Below the pieces are notes generated by a model. That model did not search any database. It was not told the DNA's origin and saw only the letters and a list, made by a program, of their open reading frames with translations. From Draconibacterium aestuarii (GTDB taxonomy: Bacteria; Bacteroidota; Bacteroidia; Bacteroidales; Prolixibacteraceae): 64,000 bases of DNA. The stretch's first letter is position 1. Every line of letters begins with the position of its first letter. Location: contig JAPOHD010000027.1 of assembly GCA_026671195.1 (NCBI GenBank), forward strand, positions 186,001 to 250,000, written 5' to 3'. The position numbers and the translations under genes were made by a program. Positions 1 through 42,381 of the stretch are shown here, piece by piece.

Positions 1-1054
1 GCCTTATAATTTGCAACTGGTTCATAAAAGCAAAACAGGCCTCTTTCGATTCAAGCTCAAAACTCATAATGGTACCCGGAACACCGTTAAAATAAGCAAG
101 AGCTGCTTCGTAGCCCGGATCGGATTTTAACCCCGGATAAACCACACTTTTTACTTTCGATTCGGAGTGTAGGAATTCGCCTAAAGCGAGGCAGTTTTTG
201 TGGCATTTTTCCACACGAAGTTCCAAAATATCCAATCCCTGAATTTGATAACGTGCCGTTTGCGGCGCCATACTCCCACCTGTATTTCGGTATATGTTTT
301 TCCGCAATTTGGCAATAAATGCATTCTGCTTAAATTTTTCGGTATACTGGTCGAGGTTCGAATTTAATTTCCAATCGTAATTACCATGGTCAATAATTGC
401 TCCTCCAAACGAGGTTGCTCCACCCGATATGTACTTGGTGGTTGAAATCACCTCAATGTTTATTCCAAATTTTCCGGCCCGAAATACATTGGGAGGGGTA
501 ATTGTGCTATCGGCAATCAACAGCAAATTGTGTTTGTTTGCAATTTGTGCCAGCATGTCAATATTGGCAATCTGTAGTTGCGGATTGGTTACGGTTTCAA
601 AATAAATGGCACGCGTATTTGTATCAATTAGGTTTTCAATATCGGTTTCCGATTGCAGATCCGAGAAACGTGTTTCAACACCGAATTCCGGCAATGTTTG
701 GTTAAACAAAGCATAAGTGTGTCCAAACAAACGATTTCCGGCAATAATATTGTCGCCGGCTTTGGTAAGGGCAAACAGAGTATTCGAAATCGCAGCCATT
801 CCCGAACTTACCGCCAAAACACCACTGCTGTTGGTAAGCGCTTTTAGTTTTAATTCAAAATATTCTACCGTTGGACTTGATGTTCGTGAATAAACATGTG
901 CCACATATTCTCCCTTAAAATTGGCTTCAATTTGCTCTGCCGAATCAAATTCGAAGGCTACCGATTCGTACAAGGGCATTTGTAACGCCTTATGAGGATC
1001 ATCTTTTGAATAAGGGACATTTAAGGCAGTGGTTGTAAATCCGGTTTTTTTCAT
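1..1054 (-). CDS. Cys/Met metabolism PLP-dependent enzyme (3' truncated by window edge)
   Basis: Read from the minus strand: ATG at 1054, open to the window edge, about 351 residues of the 400-430 usual for the family. It is a fold-type I PLP enzyme of the cystathionine gamma-synthase/O-acetylhomoserine sulfhydrylase/methionine gamma-lyase group. Visible signatures are the SSGMAA segment (about residue 83) that holds the cofactor phosphate and the STTKYISGG segment with the Schiff-base lysine at about K207. The YSRTSSPT segment near residue 55 is also typical. Sequence alone does not separate synthase, sulfhydrylase and lyase roles. If it is an O-acetylhomoserine sulfhydrylase it would be a second route to homocysteine beside the operon at 34809-42000. 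Family assignment is firm, substrate open. Confidence 0.85.
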   Translation of the reverse strand, partial: MKKTGFTTTALNVPYSKDDPHKALQMPLYESVAFEFDSAEQIEANFKGEYVAHVYSRTSSPTVEYFELKLKALTNSSGVLAVSSGMAAISNTLFALTKAGDNIIAGNRLFGHTYALFNQTLPEFGVETRFSDLQSETDIENLIDTNTRAIYFETVTNPQLQIANIDMLAQIANKHNLLLIADSTITPPNVFRAGKFGINIEVISTTKYISGGATSFGGAIIDHGNYDWKLNSNLDQYTEKFKQNAFIAKLRKNIYRNTGGSMAPQTARYQIQGLDILELRVEKCHKNCLALGEFLHSESKVKSVVYPGLKSDPGYEAALAYFNGVPGTIMSFELESKEACFAFMNQLQIIR

Positions 1055-34677: not shown

Positions 34678-34722
34678 AAAAAGGAAGCGCTGAAGATTTA
34701 AGTCTTCAGCGCTTCCTTTTTT
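34678..34722. terminator. Bidirectional terminator between DUF4837 gene and metF
   Basis: A long stem of ~18 bp (AAAAGGAAGCGCTGAAGA / TCTTCAGCGCTTCCTTTT) with a 6-nt loop. T runs flank it on both strands, so it serves the convergent DUF4837 and metF transcripts. Confidence 0.92.
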
Positions 34723-34808: not shown

Positions 34809-35762
34809 TTAAAAGGCGGCTTTCACTATTTCTTTTACATTATCGGAAATACCGTAAGTGTAAATATGAAGTGATGGTGCATTATGGGCAACAAGGTCTT
34901 TCGATTGATAAATTGCCCATTCGGTGCCAACCCGGCGTGCAGCGTCGTTGTTTTTACATTTCGCTAATTCTGTTGCCAGCTCTTGTGGTAAATCAATGCT
35001 GAATATTTTTGGAAGTACTGTTAACTGGTTTTTTAAATTAATGGGTTTAATGCCGGGTATAATTGGAATTGTAATTCCATTGGCGCGGCATTTGTCCACA
35101 AAATCGTAGTAAACCTGGTTATCGAAAAACATTTGTGTAACAATATAATCAGCTCCTTCATCCACCTTTTGTTTTAAGTAAAACATATCTTGCTCCATGT
35201 TTGGAGCTTCAAAATGCTTTTCCGGATAACCGGCAACACCAATACAAAAATCAAGTGGTGTATTATTTTTCAAATCTTCTTCAAGGTATTTCCCTTTTCC
35301 CAGATTTTTTATCTGGCGTACCAGTTCGTTGGCATTGCTGTGCCCGTTTTCGGTTGGTGTAAATACATGCTGACTTTTTAATCCGTCGCCACGTAATGCC
35401 AAAACATTATCAATACCTAAAAAATTCAGATCGATTAAAACATGTTCGGTTTCACTTTTTGTAAATCCTCCGCAAAGAATGTGAGGAACTACAGGGATTC
35501 CGTATCTATGCTGAATAGAGGCTGCAATGGCAACAGTTCCCGGACGTTTTCGGACGGTTCGTTTTACAATTTTACCGTCAGGTAATTCTTTAAATTCCAA
35601 CTCGTCTCGGTGCGTGGTAATATTAATGTATTTTGGGTCGAACTCAGTTAAACTCTCAATGGTTTTATACAAACGAGTAACATCGTTTCCTTTTAACGGC
35701 GGCAAAAGTTCAAATGAAAACACTGTACTTTTTGCCTGGTTTATGGTGTCAATAACTTTCAT
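34809..35762 (-). CDS. metF: Methylenetetrahydrofolate reductase
   Basis: 317 residues, a FAD enzyme of the MTHFR fold. Reduces 5,10-methylene-THF to 5-methyl-THF, the methyl donor for MetH. FSFELLPP, NITTHRDE, HILCGGFTKSE and DYIVTQMFFDN are the family blocks. It lies 124 bp downstream of metH on the same strand and closes the methionine block. A TAAATTTG box in the gap (35785-35792) may add internal transcription. Confidence 0.93.
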   Translation of the reverse strand: MKVIDTINQAKSTVFSFELLPPLKGNDVTRLYKTIESLTEFDPKYINITTHRDELEFKELPDGKIVKRTVRKRPGTVAIAASIQHRYGIPVVPHILCGGFTKSETEHVLIDLNFLGIDNVLALRGDGLKSQHVFTPTENGHSNANELVRQIKNLGKGKYLEEDLKNNTPLDFCIGVAGYPEKHFEAPNMEQDMFYLKQKVDEGADYIVTQMFFDNQVYYDFVDKCRANGITIPIIPGIKPINLKNQLTVLPKIFSIDLPQELATELAKCKNNDAARRVGTEWAIYQSKDLVAHNAPSLHIYTYGISDNVKEIVKAAF

Positions 35763-35784
35763 TGTCTGTTCTTTTTTTGAAATA

Positions 35785-35792
35785 CAAATTTA
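35785..35792 (-). promoter_or_regulatory. Possible internal -7 box for metF
   Basis: Minus strand TAAATTTG, 22 nt before the metF ATG. No convincing -33 element. Confidence 0.35.
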
Positions 35793-35886
35793 ATAAAATC
35801 ATACCTAATCATCCGAATAAGGTTGAATTTACATGAGAAATGACAGTTTTTTTAACTGAACTTCGGTTTTTGTACTTCTAGCTTTG

Positions 35887-38800
35887 TTATTTGTAATTCA
35901 GATTTGTAGGAAGAAATTTCTCTACAAATTCTACTGTTACTCCTTTGCGCTTTGCGTAGTCTTCAACCTGGTCTTTGCCAATTTTTTCGAGGCTGAAATA
36001 ACGTGACTCGGGATGCACAAAGAACTGCCCCGAAACCGAAGCATTTGGATACATTGCATAGTGTTCTGTCAGTGTGATCCCAATTTTTTCCGCATCTAAT
36101 AGTTTAAATAAACTCTCCTTCTCCGAATGTTCCGGACATGCCGGGTAGCCCAGTGCCGGACGAATTCCCTGGTATTTAATTTTCAGAATATCATCTAACG
36201 AAAGTTTTTCATCGGGAACATAACCCCAGTAATTTTTGCGTACTTCGAGGTGTAGCAGTTCGGCAAAGGCTTCGCTTAAACGGTCGGCAAGTGCTTCAAC
36301 CATAATGGCTTTATAATCGTTGTTTTCCTCGCGGTATTTCTTTGTCCATTTTTCAATGCCAATCCCGGCCGTGGTTGCAAAACCTCCGCAATAGTCCATT
36401 TTTCCCGATTCTTTGGATGCCACAAAATCAGCTAGACAGAAATTGGCAACGCCTTCTTTTTTCTTTTCCTGCTGGCGAATGTGGAAAAACCTACCCAATT
36501 CTTTTTTCTGTGTTTCATCTTCATAAAGAACTACATCGTCGCCATCCGAATTTGCCGGCCAAATACCAAAAGAGGCATTTGCCTGCAACATTTTCTTTTC
36601 AATAATTTCGTCAAGAAACTGGTTGGCTTCGGCATATAATTTTTTAGCTGCCTCGCCCTGTTTCTCATCGGCAAGAATTTGCGGATAATGTCCCTTTAAT
36701 CCCCAGGTGATAAAAAAGAAAGTCCAGTCGATATAATTCCGAAGCTCTTCCAATGGGAAATCGATAAGGTGTTTAACACCAACAAAATTGGGTTTGTAGA
36801 TTGGAGTATTATTCCAGTCTATTTTGTATTTGTTTTGTTGTGCTTCTTCTAAAGTTAGGTATTGTTTTGCTTTTCTTTTGCCTTGGAATTCTCGGATTTG
36901 AGTATAATCAGCTTTTACCGTTTCGATGTATTTATCGTTTTTTGCAATCAGGTTTGAAACTACATTTACCGCCAACGATGCATCTTTTACATGAATTACG
37001 GGATTGGAATATTCAGGTTCGATTTTAACTGCAGTATGAATTTTTGATGTGGTTGCTCCACCAATAAGAACCGGAATATCCAATTTGCGGCGTTCCATTT
37101 CTTTTGCAATATCAACCATAATTTCAAGCGAGGGAGTTATCAGACCGCTCAGTCCAATTACATCAACGTTGTTTTTAACAGCCTCGTTAATTATTTTTTC
37201 AGTTGGAACCATTACGCCAAGATCGATGATTTCGTAGTTGTTACAAGCGAGTACTACTCCAACAATATTTTTACCAATGTCGTGAACATCGCCTTTAACA
37301 GTGGCCATCAATATTTTTTTCTGTGCCGACGAAACTTTTAATTTTGCTTTTTCAGCTTCGATGTAAGGAAGCAAAATGGCCACTGCTTTTTTCATTACAC
37401 GTGCCGATTTTATTACCTGCGGTAAAAACATTTTCCCGGAGCCAAACAAGTTCCCAACAATGTTCATCCCATCCATTAACGGGCCTTCAATAATATTTAA
37501 AGTGGGTGAATATTTTGTAAGTGCTTCGGCCATGTCTTCTTCCACATACTCAGGAAATCCTTTTACCAATGCGTGTGCAATTCTTTCCTCCAGTGGTAAT
37601 TCGCGCCATTCATCTTTTTTCTCTTCTTTTTTACCGTCTGATTTTATGTTCTCTGCAAATTCAAGCAATCTTTCTGTAGCATCGGGACGACGGTTTAATA
37701 CCAAATCCTCTACCTTTTCGAGCAAATCCTTTGGTATCTCATCGTAAATTTGCAACATTCCCGGGTTAACAATTCCCATATCGAGCCCGGCCTTAATGGC
37801 ATGGAATAGGAAAACGGAATGAATCGCTTCACGCACAATATTATTTCCTCTAAACGAAAAGGAAACGTTACTAATTCCACCACTTGTTTTGGCATGTGGC
37901 AGATGTGCTTTTATCCACTTTACCGACTCAATAAAATCGATTGCATAATTATTGTGCTCTTCCAGTCCAGTTCCAATGGTCAATATGTTGGTGTCAAAAA
38001 TTATATCCTGCGGAGGGAAGTTTACTTTTTCAGTAAGAATCTTGTACGCACGGGTGCAAATTTCAATTCGACGCTCCAGGTTATCGGCTTGACCCACTTC
38101 ATCGAAAGCCATTACAATTACTGCAGCTCCGTAGCGTTTAATGGTTTTTGCCTGTTGTATAAAAATTTCTTCACCTTCTTTCAGGCTAATCGAATTTACA
38201 ATCGCTTTTCCCTGCAAACATTTTAACCCTTTTTCAATTACTTTCCATTTCGATGAATCAATCATTATGGGAAGTTTGGCGATGTCGGGCTCTGCCATAA
38301 TCAGATTTAGAAATGTCACCATTTCTTTTTCTGCATCCAACATGGCGTCGTCAACATTAACATCAATTACCTGCGCGCCATCTTCCACCTGTGCGCGTGC
38401 AATGGAAAGTGCCTCTTCATATTTTTCTTCACGAATCAACCGTGCAAATTTTCTTGATCCGGCCACATTGCAGCGTTCGCCAATGTTTACAAAATTGGTT
38501 TCTTCAGTAAGAGTGACTGGTTCCAGGCCACTAAAACGGGTGTTTGAATCGACGGGATTTATGGCATGAGGTTTTGCTTGTGCGGCAATTTCGGCAAAAG
38601 CATGAATGTGTGCAGGAGTTGTACCACAACATCCGCCAATTATATTTACAAGGTTGTTGTCGAGGTAATCTTTAATGTGCACGGCCATTATTTCAGGTGT
38701 TTCGTCGTATTCCCCAAACTGGTTGGGTAACCCTGCATTTGGATGTGCACTAATATGGAAAGGTGCCTTTTTTGAAAGCTCCTTAACATAGGGGCGAAGA

Positions 38801-39552
38801 TCGGTAGCTCCCAGCGAACAGTTTAACCCGATACTTAATAATTCGACATGCGAAACTGAATTTAAAAATGCTTCTAAAGTTTGACCTGAAAGTGTGCGGC
38901 CACTGGCATCGGTTATTGTTCCCGAAACCATAAGCGGGAGTTTTATTCCACGAGCTTCCAGGGCATCTTCAATGGCAAAAATTGCCGCTTTCCCGTTCAG
39001 GGTATCAAATATGGTTTCAATTATTAGCAGGTCAACATCACCGTCTAAAAGGCCCTCTACCTGCTCGCGATAGGCCTCTTTTACTTCGTCGAAACTTACA
39101 GCACGAAACCCTGGATCGTTTACATCGGGCGAAAGTGAAAGTGTTTTATTGGTTGGTCCTAGTGAACCCGCAACAAACCTTGGCTTATCCGGATTTTTGG
39201 CGGTAAACTCATCGGCAACTTTTCGGGCAATTTCTGCTGATTTTTGGTTCATCTCGTGCACTAACTCTTCAGTGCCATAGTCGGCCTGCGAAATACGTGT
39301 TGCATTAAACGTATTGGTAAGTAGAATATCGGCACCGGCCTCGAGGTATTTTCTATGAATCTCCTTAATAATTTCAGGATGGGTAATAGACAAAATGTCG
39401 TTGTTCCCCTTCTGATCGTTGGGGTGGTCTTTTAAACGCTGCCCGTGATAATCTGCTTCGGTTAATTTGTATTCCTGAATTAATGAACCCATTGCCCCAT
39501 CCATCACTAGAACACGGGATCGTAGCTCTTCTTTTATGTCTTTTTTTATCAT
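35887..39552 (-). CDS. metH: Cobalamin-dependent methionine synthase
   Basis: 1221 residues, close to E. coli MetH (about 1227). Order of domains: homocysteine-binding barrel with zinc ligands C245, C308, C309; pterin-binding barrel from about 350 ([16 protein letters not shown]); B12 cap and B12-binding domain with DVHDIG (H757, the lower cobalt ligand); and a C-terminal reactivation domain with [12 protein letters not shown]. The full-length form implies flavodoxin/AdoMet reactivation. It follows the UPF0280 gene by 94 bp containing a palindromic repeat. Pathway role: methylates the homocysteine made by the upstream genes. Confidence 0.96.
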
Positions 39553-39565
39553 TCTGTTATCTGAG

Positions 39566-39646
39566 TTTCTCTGTGATGTCTTTGTGTTCTCAGTGGTGAA
39601 AAATTACCACAAAGTTACACAAAGTAGGCTCAAAGCCTCACAAAGC
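39566..39646. repeat. Palindromic CTTTGTG/CACAAAG repeat between UPF0280 gene and metH
   Basis: Imperfect inverted repeat: arms at 39580-39597 and 39606-39624 share CTTTGTGT...TGGT and its complement around a GAAAAATT centre. Further CACAAAG copies follow up to 39645. It fills almost the whole gap between the two genes and has the look of the dispersed extragenic repeats of this phylum. Confidence 0.6.
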
Positions 39647-40423
39647 TTATTTCAAAATTCTTATTTCATTTCCACCCTTAATTCCAACCTTGTCTTCGCA
39701 AATAATTAGCAAGGATTCTATTTCGGGATATTGTTCAGCCTGTTTTATCACTTTCTCTACATGGTCAGGCGATTTTACTTTATTCCCAAGTGCTGTTGCA
39801 AAAGCATCGGCTAAAAGTATGTCTTCGCAAACAACCACAACCGCATCAGCTATTCCATAACTTAATGAAGGCCCAACTGTTCCTGCTGAAGTACATATTC
39901 CGAGTTTCTTATTTTTGGCTGGAATTACCAGACCGATACGTTCGGAAAGAATTGATTCGCCGGCAAAAACCGAAAGCACCAATTCATCTTCTAAAAGCAC
40001 ATAAATATCGCCGCCGTTCTCTATAACCAACTCCTTTACCGAAAAGTTCCGAATAATTTCCTCTCCAATTTCGCGTGCAAACAAACCGGCCACTGCCGAC
40101 ATCGGACCAATGCCTGCTTTTTCAGCAGCAGCAGCCATTTCATGCGCTTCTTTTGGAGCCGTTTCTGAGGGCTGAAAAGGTTTCAAACTTTTTTTGAAAA
40201 AGGGTTCGGTTTCAATGTAAGAGTCGAAAGATTTCCGAAGACTTTCCATTTTTGCCAGCGCCACTTCTTTCATCCGCTCGTCGAATGATTCCGGATCGAC
40301 GCCAATCCACAGATCGGTTTCAAGGTATTTAATTTCAATACCTGAAAACCTTTCAGTATTGAATTGAGAGCGATATGTGCGAGCTTGAAAACCTCCCAGT
40401 AAATTTTTAAAAGGCTGATTCAT
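39647..40423 (-). CDS. UPF0280 family protein (COG2122, ApbE-like)
   Basis: 258 residues. The VIENGGDIYV and GPMSAVAGLFAREIG segments and the GICTSAGTVGPSLSYG block are typical of UPF0280, a fold related to the flavin transferase ApbE. In Methanosarcina a COG2122 protein is reported to help sulfide assimilation into homocysteine (knowledge of that family, MA1715). Here it lies 10 bp after the NIL-ferredoxin gene and before metH, which supports the same role. Confidence 0.88.
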   Translation of the reverse strand: MNQPFKNLLGGFQARTYRSQFNTERFSGIEIKYLETDLWIGVDPESFDERMKEVALAKMESLRKSFDSYIETEPFFKKSLKPFQPSETAPKEAHEMAAAAEKAGIGPMSAVAGLFAREIGEEIIRNFSVKELVIENGGDIYVLLEDELVLSVFAGESILSERIGLVIPAKNKKLGICTSAGTVGPSLSYGIADAVVVVCEDILLADAFATALGNKVKSPDHVEKVIKQAEQYPEIESLLIICEDKVGIKGGNEIRILK

Positions 40424-40433
40424 TTATTTGAGC

Positions 40434-40844
40434 TTATCTAAAGTCTATTTCGAACAAGTTTAAGGGACAGGCCGGAATACAAAGTTCGCAAACCACACAA
40501 TTACTTTTGTCGAATTCCAGTTTCCATGTTTCACGGTTCATGTTCAGTGCGCCTGCAAAACAAACGGCAGTACAGTTTCCGCAGTCGATACATTTTTCTT
40601 CCTTCCAGCTAATTCGTTTATCTAGCGATTCGCAGGTAATTTTATGACTTTTAATGTATTCAACCCCTTTTTCAATGTTTTCTTTTTTCCCTTGTAATTC
40701 GAGCAACAAACTTCCGCGTTTGCCCGGGTAAACTTCGGCTTTCAGAATATTGATGCGAATATCGTAATCTTTTACCAAGTGATAGGTAAATGCTTTGTCT
40801 CCGCTTTGTGGGGGGAAATTCAGGATGTATCTTTTTTTAATCAT
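40434..40844 (-). CDS. NIL domain plus 2[4Fe-4S] ferredoxin
   Basis: 136 residues. N-terminal NIL domain (about 1-75), the small ligand-binding fold of methionine transporters, followed by a bacterial ferredoxin. Cys sets: C85, C88, C91, C95 and C116, C119, C122, C126, each followed by a cluster-type loop. In methanogens the same fusion (MA1822 type) is the redox partner of the DUF39 protein in homocysteine formation. Its start overlaps the end of the DUF39 gene by 8 bp, showing translational coupling. Confidence 0.92.
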   Translation of the reverse strand: MIKKRYILNFPPQSGDKAFTYHLVKDYDIRINILKAEVYPGKRGSLLLELQGKKENIEKGVEYIKSHKITCESLDKRISWKEEKCIDCGNCTAVCFAGALNMNRETWKLEFDKSNCVVCELCIPACPLNLFEIDFR

Positions 40845-42000
40845 TGTCGGCCTCCGTTTCTTTTAATCCGTTTAACGAAGTGTTGCCTGGGAACATTTGA
40901 ACTGGTTTGGTTACTTCGAACTCGCCTTTTAGCAACCACTGTTTTAATTCATCGGCAATTTTACGTGCTTTTGCCAGGCTGGCAACCGGAGCAGTCCTGA
41001 TTTTTTTGTTTCCAACTTTGATAGAGCCAGATTGCAGTTCTTCGTATGTAACTTGGCCGAGTTTTGGCGTGCCAACCGTTCCATAATCCAGAACCGAAGT
41101 TTCTATTTGGCTGTTGTTTATCGAAACACGTTTGGCAATGTCGGCGTTTAAAATCGGAATCGGAATTCCAATCCCCACAAACATACTCACCCCGTATTTT
41201 TCGTAATAAGCCGCTTTAATATAATCGGGCGACATTTCTTTTAAGTTTCCCATAACTGCAATGGTGGCGGCATTGGTTACGGGCACACCCAGCTCATTTT
41301 TGGGTTTGGTTGTATGAAATTGCGTGCCGGGCCAAACTACAAATCCCTGTGTTCCGCCAAGGAAAATGCGGGTTCCCAAACCAATGGTTTTAAACTCCGG
41401 ATCGTTAAGCAGCGGACTCAATTCACCCGAAGTGGAGTAGGTGGCATTGCGCAAATTCGGCAACAGAGTACCCATGTAGGTGTGAATCATTTTTTGAGTT
41501 GTATTTACCGCTACATTGTAGTTTTGGTAAGCATTGCGCGGATTAAACAGCGTAAACTCGTTAATCGTATTTATGTTGATCTTGGTTTTAATGTGTTTCC
41601 GCGGATAACAGTCGGTTCCTTTTGCCCAGGCTTCCAAAACCACGTCTCTCCCTTCCAGCAGATCCTGAATAACATGGGCCCCGCCGTATTTTGGATTGTC
41701 AGGATCGCAGGCAGTAGCACCAATGTACGAATCAACCGCAGCCAGTCCTTCGTAACAGGGAACTCCGTTCAAACGAATCTTTTCCATGCGAATGGGTGGA
41801 TTGGCATGACCAAAATTGATAATGGCACCTGACGAACACATGGCTCCAAAAGTTGCGGTTGTAACCACATCTACTTTTTCTACAATTTCTTCCGGCGACA
41901 TTTCCTTCGCCATTTTAGAAACTTCCTCGGCCGTAAGCACCACTGCTTCACCCGATTTAAGTTTTCTGTTTATTTCTTCGTAAGTTTTTATTTTTGGCAT
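40837..42000 (-). CDS. DUF39 (COG1900) homocysteine biosynthesis protein
   Basis: 387 residues from ATG 42000; the frame is open to 42090 but that part runs through a tandem repeat and lacks conserved sequence. KTEINRK-like start, TTATFGAMCSSGA (C55, a likely catalytic Cys), TACDPDNP and TDCYPRK give several conserved cysteines. LGTRIFLGGTQGFVVWPG is another family block. The Methanosarcina homologue (MA1821) takes part in making homocysteine from aspartate semialdehyde and sulfide. No O-acyl-homoserine step would be needed. First gene of the SAM-riboswitch-controlled operon. Confidence 0.9.
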   Translation of the reverse strand: MPKIKTYEEINRKLKSGEAVVLTAEEVSKMAKEMSPEEIVEKVDVVTTATFGAMCSSGAIINFGHANPPIRMEKIRLNGVPCYEGLAAVDSYIGATACDPDNPKYGGAHVIQDLLEGRDVVLEAWAKGTDCYPRKHIKTKININTINEFTLFNPRNAYQNYNVAVNTTQKMIHTYMGTLLPNLRNATYSTSGELSPLLNDPEFKTIGLGTRIFLGGTQGFVVWPGTQFHTTKPKNELGVPVTNAATIAVMGNLKEMSPDYIKAAYYEKYGVSMFVGIGIPIPILNADIAKRVSINNSQIETSVLDYGTVGTPKLGQVTYEELQSGSIKVGNKKIRTAPVASLAKARKIADELKQWLLKGEFEVTKPVQMFPGNTSLNGLKETEADND

Positions 42001-42005
42001 ATTTT

Positions 42006-42033
42006 GAAGCTCGAAGTCGGAAGCTCGAAGTCG
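42006..42033. repeat. Tandem 14-bp repeat in the leader of the homocysteine operon
   Basis: Two perfect head-to-tail copies of GAAGCTCGAAGTCG (42006-42019, 42020-42033), ending 6 nt upstream of the DUF39 ATG. A third copy begins (GAAG) and stops. Confidence 0.85.
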
Positions 42034-42116
42034 GAAGAAAACTATTCCAAAATCAGCCCTCGTCTTCATTAATATTTTATAGATTAACAAACTTTATCAA
42101 TGCGACCTTTATGCGG

Positions 42117-42194
42117 TTAAAACCGCCATTGCATACACATATTCGCCCCATGCAAATAGCTTGTAAAAAATAATTTGTACTGTAATTTTTTCAT
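42117..42194 (-). CDS. Possible 25-residue leader peptide after the SAM riboswitch
   Basis: ATG at 42194, five nt past the 3' side of riboswitch helix P1; stop at 42117. The peptide begins MKKLQYKLFF and ends with HGANMCMQWRF, so it has two internal Met close together near its end. The stop overlaps a GCGGTT/AACCGC hairpin. It could be a methionine-sensing leader peptide or chance; there is no independent evidence of translation. Confidence 0.3.
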   Translation of the reverse strand: MKKLQYKLFFTSYLHGANMCMQWRF

Positions 42195-42198
42195 GATC

Positions 42199-42322
42199 GT
42201 GTTCAAATTATAATTCCGTTTCCGGCCGGGTATTGGCACCTTGTATCTCCAATGCATTATGGCTACAGGTTGCCAGAGTTTCTTTGAGCCCGCTCTCTTC
42301 ACTCTTCTGTATATTCAAACAC
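42199..42322 (-). ncRNA. SAM-I-type (S-box) riboswitch
   Basis: Minus-strand fold found by eye. P1: 42313-42322 pairs with 42199-42208 (10 bp with two G-U). P2: AGAGT (42301-42305) with ACTCT (42275-42279), enclosing GAAGAG...GGGCTCAAAGAA as in the kink-turn arm. Core GGCAACC at 42268-42274. P3: TGTA/TACA with an inner CCA/TGG. Core AAGGTGCCAATACC at 42229-42242. P4: CCG-GAAA-CGG (42216-42225), a GNRA loop. These are the conserved elements of SAM-I in the right order. It lies about 200 nt before the DUF39 start, so high SAM should repress methionine synthesis genes. Confidence 0.85.
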
Positions 42323-42352
42323 CCTATTGCGAAAGAATATTTGACGATGCCA

Positions 42353-42381
42353 CAAAGTTAATCGATTTTGCATATTTACAA
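42353..42381 (-). promoter_or_regulatory. Promoter of the SAM-riboswitch methionine operon
   Basis: Minus strand: TTG (42379-42381), 18-nt spacer, TAACTTTG (42353-42360), a full consensus match. Predicted start near 42346, about 24 nt before helix P1 of the riboswitch, which fits an operon leader of ~345 nt. Confidence 0.75.

Follow-up and report, generated by a model that had tools for sequence, protein, structure and literature searches.

What does a short open reading frame (ORF) do between a riboswitch for S-adenosylmethionine (SAM) and the methionine operon downstream of it? The question is raised by a locus in a 64,000-nt stretch of the Draconibacterium aestuarii genome (contig JAPOHD010000027.1, positions 186,001 to 250,000; hereafter the window, in whose coordinates positions are given). 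On its minus strand, a promoter-like element, a SAM-I aptamer and the genes for DUF39 (HcyBio), NIL-ferredoxin, UPF0280, MetH and MetF follow one another in a single orientation, as the initial annotation of this DNA had described and as profile matches agree. That annotation took the riboswitch to be the sole control; however, a conserved leader ORF sits between the aptamer and DUF39. We consider it probable that the locus combines two sensors in series, in which the riboswitch gates translation of an attenuator built on methionine codons.

The leader ORF of the HcyBio operon

Four elements lie upstream of the first gene:

42353–42381, minus strand: promoter-like TTG-N18-TAACTTTG of Bacteroidota type, from sequence
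42205–42317, minus strand: SAM-I riboswitch aptamer (RF00162, 56.4 bits, gathering threshold 44.4, E 2.4e-10 over the window)
42117–42194, minus strand: leader ORF of 25 codons, MKKLQYKLFFTSYLHGANMCMQWRF, starting 10 nt past the aptamer
42113–42126, minus strand: short inverted repeat GCGG-TTTTAA-CCGC, whose loop contains the stop codon of the leader, from sequence

The promoter-like element, read from 42381 to 42353 as TTG-N18-TAnnTTTG, resembles the Bacteroidota promoter consensus. RF00162 is the sole Rfam family matched at the gathering threshold in the window, where no T-box reached that threshold, and the 6.37-Mb genome yielded no SAM riboswitch besides this aptamer. It is predicted to sense SAM, and the genes downstream of it are methionine genes; SAM-I variants that bind spermidine have been described (PMC10853860).

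Among 37 genomes of the genus, the aptamer occurs once per genome in 31, always beside HcyBio; under strict filters, it has no match in the four genomes that lack HcyBio, nor in two others (G023 and G027). It lies 5ʹ of the HcyBio operon in 28 out of 29 other loci that we scanned in the genus. In 23 of the 29 aptamer-bearing loci (the window and these 28), the aptamer is followed by a leader ORF of 24–33 codons, and HcyBio starts 140–232 nt past the aptamer. In the six loci without a leader, HcyBio itself starts 11–31 nt past the aptamer. With the Rfam fold imposed on the genus alignment, standard pairs fill 90.3% of cells, versus 31–40% when the columns are slid by one to three positions; a fold obtained with RNAalifold from a MAFFT alignment was unlike the Rfam aptamer and was dropped.

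The leader is almost certainly a genuine ORF that is conserved and belongs to a Met-rich class. The pN/pS ratio for 19 distinct genus sequences is 0.35, whereas column shuffles average 0.90, with none of 300 as low, and the other two frames of the same region give 0.90 and 1.22. The residues LF and HG-NMCM are conserved, and in the window the leader carries Met-Cys-Met near its end. A leader profile finds one match each in 26 genus genomes (E < 1e-9), beside HcyBio; three weak extra matches (E 0.02–0.04) are likely due to chance. At the leader end, GCGG-N6-CCGC recurs in 21 of the 23 genus leader regions. In the predicted fold of the window, the 3ʹ strand of the aptamer helix P1 pairs with leader codons; since that strand is almost constant in the genus, covariation offers no basis for judging this idea.

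How might the two elements act together? The distance from the end of P1 to the first start codon is nearly constant. In the simplest reading, SAM binding makes P1 hinder initiation: it would end 10 nt short of that codon in the SAM-bound state, whereas at low SAM the leader would be translated. If charged Met-tRNA or Cys-tRNA were scarce, the ribosome would pause at the Met and Cys codons of the leader, keeping the stop-codon hairpin from forming, and the operon would be expressed; with charged tRNA plentiful, the ribosome would leave and the hairpin would form. Full expression of the operon would require low SAM together with uncharged Met-tRNA. The last step, after the hairpin, could be either transcriptional or translational. 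The sequences themselves establish the aptamer, the leader and the selection on it, the Met-rich tails across the order, the constant spacing and the Met-rich leader without a riboswitch at the other homocysteine operon of this genome; we infer that SAM binds, that ribosomes stall, which way the effect goes and what this last step is.

Leaders behind SAM aptamers across the order

We extended the analysis to 393 genomes of the order. “Order” here means the GTDB order. It includes G715, in which the leader peptide has the same sequence as one from a locus with the record title uncultured Odoribacter (L083, L269), although NCBI separates Draconibacterium and Odoribacter by order. A SAM riboswitch was matched in 115 of the 393 genomes, in 113 of them above the gathering score. 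We examined 128 of the 132 aptamer places, in 111 genomes, excluding those in the genus itself (G000, which is the genome of the window, and G019) and those below the gathering score (G712 and G701). The string GCAACC is missing from 20 of the 128 aptamers, all of which were kept. A leader was called where the first ATG lies 5–17 nt past the aptamer and opens an ORF of 10–60 codons.

By this rule, a leader ORF stands behind 78 of the 128 aptamers. An ATG lies 9–15 nt past the aptamer in 87 of the 128, against a mean of 17 and a maximum of 29 in shuffled sequences, and the starts cluster at 11–15 nt. In ten leaderless loci, metH itself starts 11–20 nt past the aptamer. Behind one aptamer (L153) lies a stretch with a long run of T and an ORF of nine residues, with no Met-rich leader.

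Methionine accounts for 16.3% of the last 12 leader residues, versus 2.0% in shuffles (maximum 3.0%), and for 18.5% of the last 10 residues versus 1.3% elsewhere in the leader; it is the most enriched residue, followed by Arg and Cys. Of the 78 leaders, 52 have at least two Met among the last 12 residues; these 52 come from 49 genomes and represent 26 of 33 families. Such tails occur in 2% of shuffles and in 4.5% of 177 opposite-strand ORFs from the same stretches. When each family is represented by one leader, 21 of the 33 have such a tail (about 2% in shuffles, with none of 200 as high). Sorted by first gene, tails with at least two Met precede metY in 24 of 37 cases, an aspartokinase-like gene in 13 of 14, metH in 10 of 17, HcyBio in 4 of 4, a MetX-like gene in 0 of 1 and other genes in 1 of 5. 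Leaders that end in Cys runs lie behind three SAM aptamers, two in G683 and one in G592 (L200, L229 and L233). In L200, what follows the leader is a protein of 322 aa with no Pfam match, along with a TonB receptor; in L229 and L233, a Cys/Met pyridoxal phosphate (PLP) enzyme comes next, with a TonB receptor too in L229.

Does the leader sense anything at all? The spacing between the aptamer and the first start codon is kept both where that codon belongs to a leader and where it belongs to an enzyme, and intrinsic terminators are rare; both fit a plain SAM riboswitch operon in which the leader is a relay to HcyBio that senses neither Met nor Cys. However, a relay needs no Met-rich tail, and Met is about tenfold enriched in the tail and not elsewhere. 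Moreover, Cys-run leaders occur, and a Met-rich leader also occurs without a riboswitch (see below). We therefore regard a mere relay as unlikely. The purifying selection and the conserved motifs seen in the genus would also suit a leader that encodes a small protein acting by itself, but the feature shared across families is the Met-rich tail, the remainder of the peptide being variable, and the profile matches one place per genome; such a protein seems very improbable. Finally, since a Met codon doubles as a translation start, the Met codons could be extra start or re-initiation sites rather than sensors. We find this very improbable: leaders with Cys runs also lie behind SAM aptamers, and the Met codons stand just before the leader stop, whereas the main gene usually begins tens to hundreds of nucleotides further on.

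Folding at the leader end was assessed for 71 of the 78 leaders (those whose last 14 residues include Met, or that have at least four Cys). The mean folding z-score around the leader stop is −1.29 (n = 71), versus −0.29 for a control inside the main gene (n = 66), and short GC hairpins lie at the leader stop in 34 of 71 cases, against 8–20 in 20 shuffles. We considered a standard intrinsic terminator at the leader and set it aside as weak at best, the counts being barely above those of shuffles.

Several observations weigh against two sensors in series. By the rule used, 50 of the 128 aptamers have no leader; of the 78 leaders, 26 carry at most one Met in the tail and two overlap the start of the main gene; the tail of the window leader holds only two Met and one Cys. 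Terminator-like sites are rare, with a slight excess at most, occurring near the leader stop in 5 of 71 cases (0–4 in shuffles) and between the leader stop and the main gene in 8 of 65 (1–6 in shuffles), and among the leaders we found no conserved hairpin pair whose members exclude each other. Within the genus, covariation in the aptamer is weak (two-sided changes at four pairs, with as many in 76 of 500 shuffles) because the sequence is nearly invariant. Aptamer and leader are also not strictly tied, since G023 has a leader without an aptamer; G027 has neither, and both genomes carry HcyBio. With these points included, we lean slightly towards an order-wide two-input gate, in which the SAM-bound aptamer would block the start codon of a leader rich in Met, or sometimes Cys.

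Two predicted routes to homocysteine and their control

The genes behind the leader, and the hairpin beyond them, are as follows:

40837–42000, minus strand: HcyBio (DUF39, COG1900a), candidate L-aspartate semialdehyde sulfurtransferase (PF01837, 495 bits)
40434–40844, minus strand: NIL-domain ferredoxin with two [4Fe-4S] clusters (PF09383 and Fer4, above cut-off)
39647–40423, minus strand: UPF0280 (COG2122) protein (NF003323, 230 bits, 3.6e-68, below the curated cut-off of 271)
35887–39552, minus strand: metH, B12-dependent methionine synthase (NF007024, 2016 bits, cut-off 1497)
34809–35762, minus strand: metF, methylenetetrahydrofolate reductase (TIGR00676, 307.5 bits, cut-off 293.7)
34678–34721, between metF and the convergent gene: palindromic hairpin with a 20-pair stem (scored on the plus strand only)

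We took the ATG at 42000 as the start of DUF39, where the ORF list had a TTG at 42090. The 8-bp overlap noted in the initial annotation is borne out by the coordinates of HcyBio and NIL-ferredoxin (40837/40844), and the remaining intergenic gaps measure 10, 94 and 124 nt. The sole minus-strand terminator-like site in these gaps (39638–39626) is weak, and the operon region as a whole has 10 terminator-like sites on both strands, versus 8.5 expected from shuffles. Transcription of the cluster from HcyBio to metF as one RNA is likely from this layout, and the hairpin at 34678–34721 is a possible terminator of both metF and the convergent gene. The UPF0280 protein has no Pfam match; it matches PDB 2o34 (3.3e-29).

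In Desulfovibrio vulgaris, genetic work describes the three families as required for methionine, with homoserine no intermediate (PMC5764234), and the same families are reported to make homocysteine in Methanosarcina, as L-aspartate semialdehyde sulfurtransferase (L-ASST; PMC12068725). Cys54 of the Methanosarcina enzyme is described as essential and Cys131 as conserved (PMC12068725). Cys55, present in 81 of 81 HcyBio sequences, and Cys131, present in 80 of 81, agree with these in position, as compared by residue numbering. The gene content is best explained by an operon for the production of methionine from aspartate semialdehyde and sulfide, in which HcyBio, NIL-ferredoxin and UPF0280 would form homocysteine and MetH and MetF would convert it to methionine.

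The same genome contains, in a row, an aspartokinase-type amino-acid-kinase/ACT protein (PF00696 plus ACT domains), metY and metA. MetA is of the acetyl type (NF047918, 491.8 bits, cut-off 460.5), and MetY is an O-acetylhomoserine/O-acetylserine sulfhydrylase by the subfamily model TIGR01326 (680.9 bits, cut-off 495.1). By these scores, the O-acetylhomoserine route is complete in the genome and the HcyBio operon is a second route, so the idea that HcyBio provides the only homocysteine was rejected. The initial annotation had assigned the gene trio to known homocysteine families, which holds as a family assignment but not if read as the sole route. It had also proposed a search for metA, metX, metB and metY, and named a complete O-acetylhomoserine route, together with failure of the trio to make homocysteine, as grounds against its proposal; with metA and metY present, the first half of that pair is what we find.

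Of the 37 genus genomes, 33 carry HcyBio and 32 carry MetA: both are present in 28, MetA alone in four and HcyBio alone in five. MetY is above its cut-off in all four MetA-only genomes and in none of the five HcyBio-only genomes, and MetX has no match above cut-off anywhere in the genus, only weak partial ones. The five HcyBio-only genomes are 73, 70, 93, 96 and 79% complete, so that the absence of MetA and MetY is firm only in the two at 93 and 96%. This pattern fits the idea that either route suffices, and the HcyBio route is presumably the anaerobic one. One of the five, G023 (L163/L293), is a 2.2-Mb genome, 96% complete, that keeps HcyBio and the leader and has no aptamer match, no MetA and no MetY above cut-off. 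In G012, metY (L288, 4850–6147) is matched in two reading frames and may be broken or mis-sequenced.

Might the trio serve some other sulfur transfer and make no homocysteine here, with metA and metY sufficing? The complete O-acetylhomoserine route would allow this, and an HcyBio paralogue is reported to make coenzyme M (PMC12068725). However, the model for that paralogue, MMP16 (TIGR03287), gives HcyBio 139 bits against a cut-off of 364, and by score HcyBio here is not the coenzyme M paralogue. The two nearly complete HcyBio-only genomes, and the three others without MetA or above-cut-off MetY, also argue against another role, as does the frequent presence of metH downstream of HcyBio (see below). 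All told, we judge it improbable.

The spread of the trio was surveyed in the best 80 of 551 confirmed HcyBio loci. HcyBio, NIL-ferredoxin and UPF0280 are clustered in 68 of these 80, and the titles of the surveyed records include Bacteroidota, Spirochaetes, Neomarinimicrobiota, WOR-3 and Bacillota, so that the cluster is shared with other loci of anaerobe type; since the trio clusters so widely under bacterial record titles, the label “archaeal-type” that the route had been given is too narrow. NIL-ferredoxin is close downstream of HcyBio in 73 of the 80 loci, metH lies within 5 kb downstream in 35, and all five genes are present in 21. The contig ends less than 5 kb downstream of HcyBio in 21 loci, and metH is found in 31 of the remaining 59. 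The nearest named loci are from Draconibacterium and Mariniphaga (Prolixibacteraceae), with HcyBio identities of 84–91%. HcyBio occurs in 12 of the 393 order genomes and, in a sample of the phylum, in one of 395, which is the window's own; among the 21 rows listed from that sample, five besides this genome belong to the same order. We rejected the notion that the route is new to Bacteroidota, as it is widespread in the genus, occurs in those 12 order genomes, and is found in named loci including Odoribacter and Butyricimonas.

How are the two routes controlled? The aspartokinase-metY-metA operon of the window's genome is preceded by a leader, MNLETRNILSSAVATRYSAMFMSSMSMFMR (G000 contig C25 near 173988; L285, 5489 downward, minus strand), which ends in SAMFMSSMSMFMR and has five Met in its last 12 residues. 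A Met-rich leader, with two to five Met, precedes the metY-metA operon in all eight genus loci examined, and Rfam finds no riboswitch in those eight. In the window's genome, a stem of CGCTAG/CTAGCG around GCCTTC/GAAGGC folds over the end of this leader. The presence of a Met-rich leader without a riboswitch argues that the leader is a device of its own, which is combined with a riboswitch at HcyBio. In the genus, the two routes would thus answer to different sensors, with the aptamer on the HcyBio route and a leader alone on metY-metA.

Elsewhere in the order, the aptamer precedes metY/metX, an aspartokinase-like gene with metY (and metA), or metH; in another genus of the same family (G759), it stands on aspartokinase-metY-metA (L283). 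It lies beside HcyBio in 7 of the 12 order genomes that have HcyBio. Since the aptamer precedes different routes across the order, SAM control seems to have moved between routes. A model trained on the genus places an aptamer 5ʹ of HcyBio in at least 24 of the 80 named loci, including some from WOR-3 (L121) and Bacillota (L124, L126), and 5ʹ of metH in two Acetobacterium loci; the count of 24 is a lower bound, given the narrow model and the shortness of some contigs.

Some further features lie near the operon or elsewhere in the window. A pyrimidine-rich tandem repeat of CTTCCGACTTCGAG occupies 42001–42040, immediately 5ʹ of HcyBio, and its 14-mer occurs twice in the window; it is a conceivable Rho site. 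In eight relatives (L009, L010, L011, L017, L030, L032, L035 and L037), tRNA genes adjoin the HcyBio operon. A Cys/Met PLP enzyme (positions 1–1033, minus strand; PF01053, 337 bits) runs off the start of the window, where the initial annotation had placed it. It lies between the sulfhydrylase and lyase families and reaches no cut-off among the 25 NCBIfam models listed.

Comparison with known systems

Leader-peptide attenuators of the trp and his type, and the cys upstream ORFs of actinobacteria, are likewise short ORFs with regulatory codons near their ends that precede biosynthetic genes. In contrast to these classical attenuators, the ORF described here lies directly behind a riboswitch that apparently controls its start codon, and we found no terminator/antiterminator pair. 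Within the phylum, clues to leader peptides before amino-acid operons, and leader-like short ORFs in long 5ʹ untranslated regions, have been presented for Flavobacterium psychrophilum (PMC9723704) and Bacteroides thetaiotaomicron (PMC7366714). The likeness is in the leader peptides; no SAM riboswitch is joined to them in the parts of those reports that we draw on. No Bacteroidota SAM riboswitch combined with a leader peptide appeared among the literature matches listed, which comprise titles and the starts of abstracts, with subscription journals and preprints mostly outside; this is a weak sign of novelty.

What would be the significance of such an arrangement? Riboswitches and leader-peptide attenuators are commonly regarded as alternatives; in this order, at least 26 families seem to stack the two on their methionine-synthesis genes. 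If this is true, the SAM riboswitches of this group should be studied together with their leader ORFs, as annotation of the aptamer alone would miss half of the device. Bacteroidota make little use of Shine-Dalgarno sites, and the start codon at a fixed distance would offer a simple model for translational control by riboswitches in the phylum. The reason why some of these bacteria keep two homocysteine routes would also become testable.

The enzymes themselves resemble the L-ASST of Methanosarcina (MA1821-MA1822) and the DUF39, NIL-ferredoxin and COG2122 genes of Desulfovibrio in belonging to the same three families, and the conserved Cys here fall near positions 54 and 131 by numbering. The methanogen L-ASST is described as having a C-terminal CBS domain (PMC12068725), whereas the 387-aa HcyBio has no match to one, PF01837 being its sole domain match. 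A further difference from both systems is that the genes here stand with metH and metF behind a SAM riboswitch, and coexist with a complete metA-metY route.

The closest parallel in regulation is the SAM-I/T-box(Met) tandem, of which two examples are reported, before metX and metY. There too, SAM and uncharged tRNA-Met are sensed, in the same order, upstream of homocysteine genes. The second sensor in D. aestuarii and its relatives would be a translated leader peptide rather than a T-box and, if two sensors do act in series, the arrangement would be a ribosome-based counterpart of that tandem.

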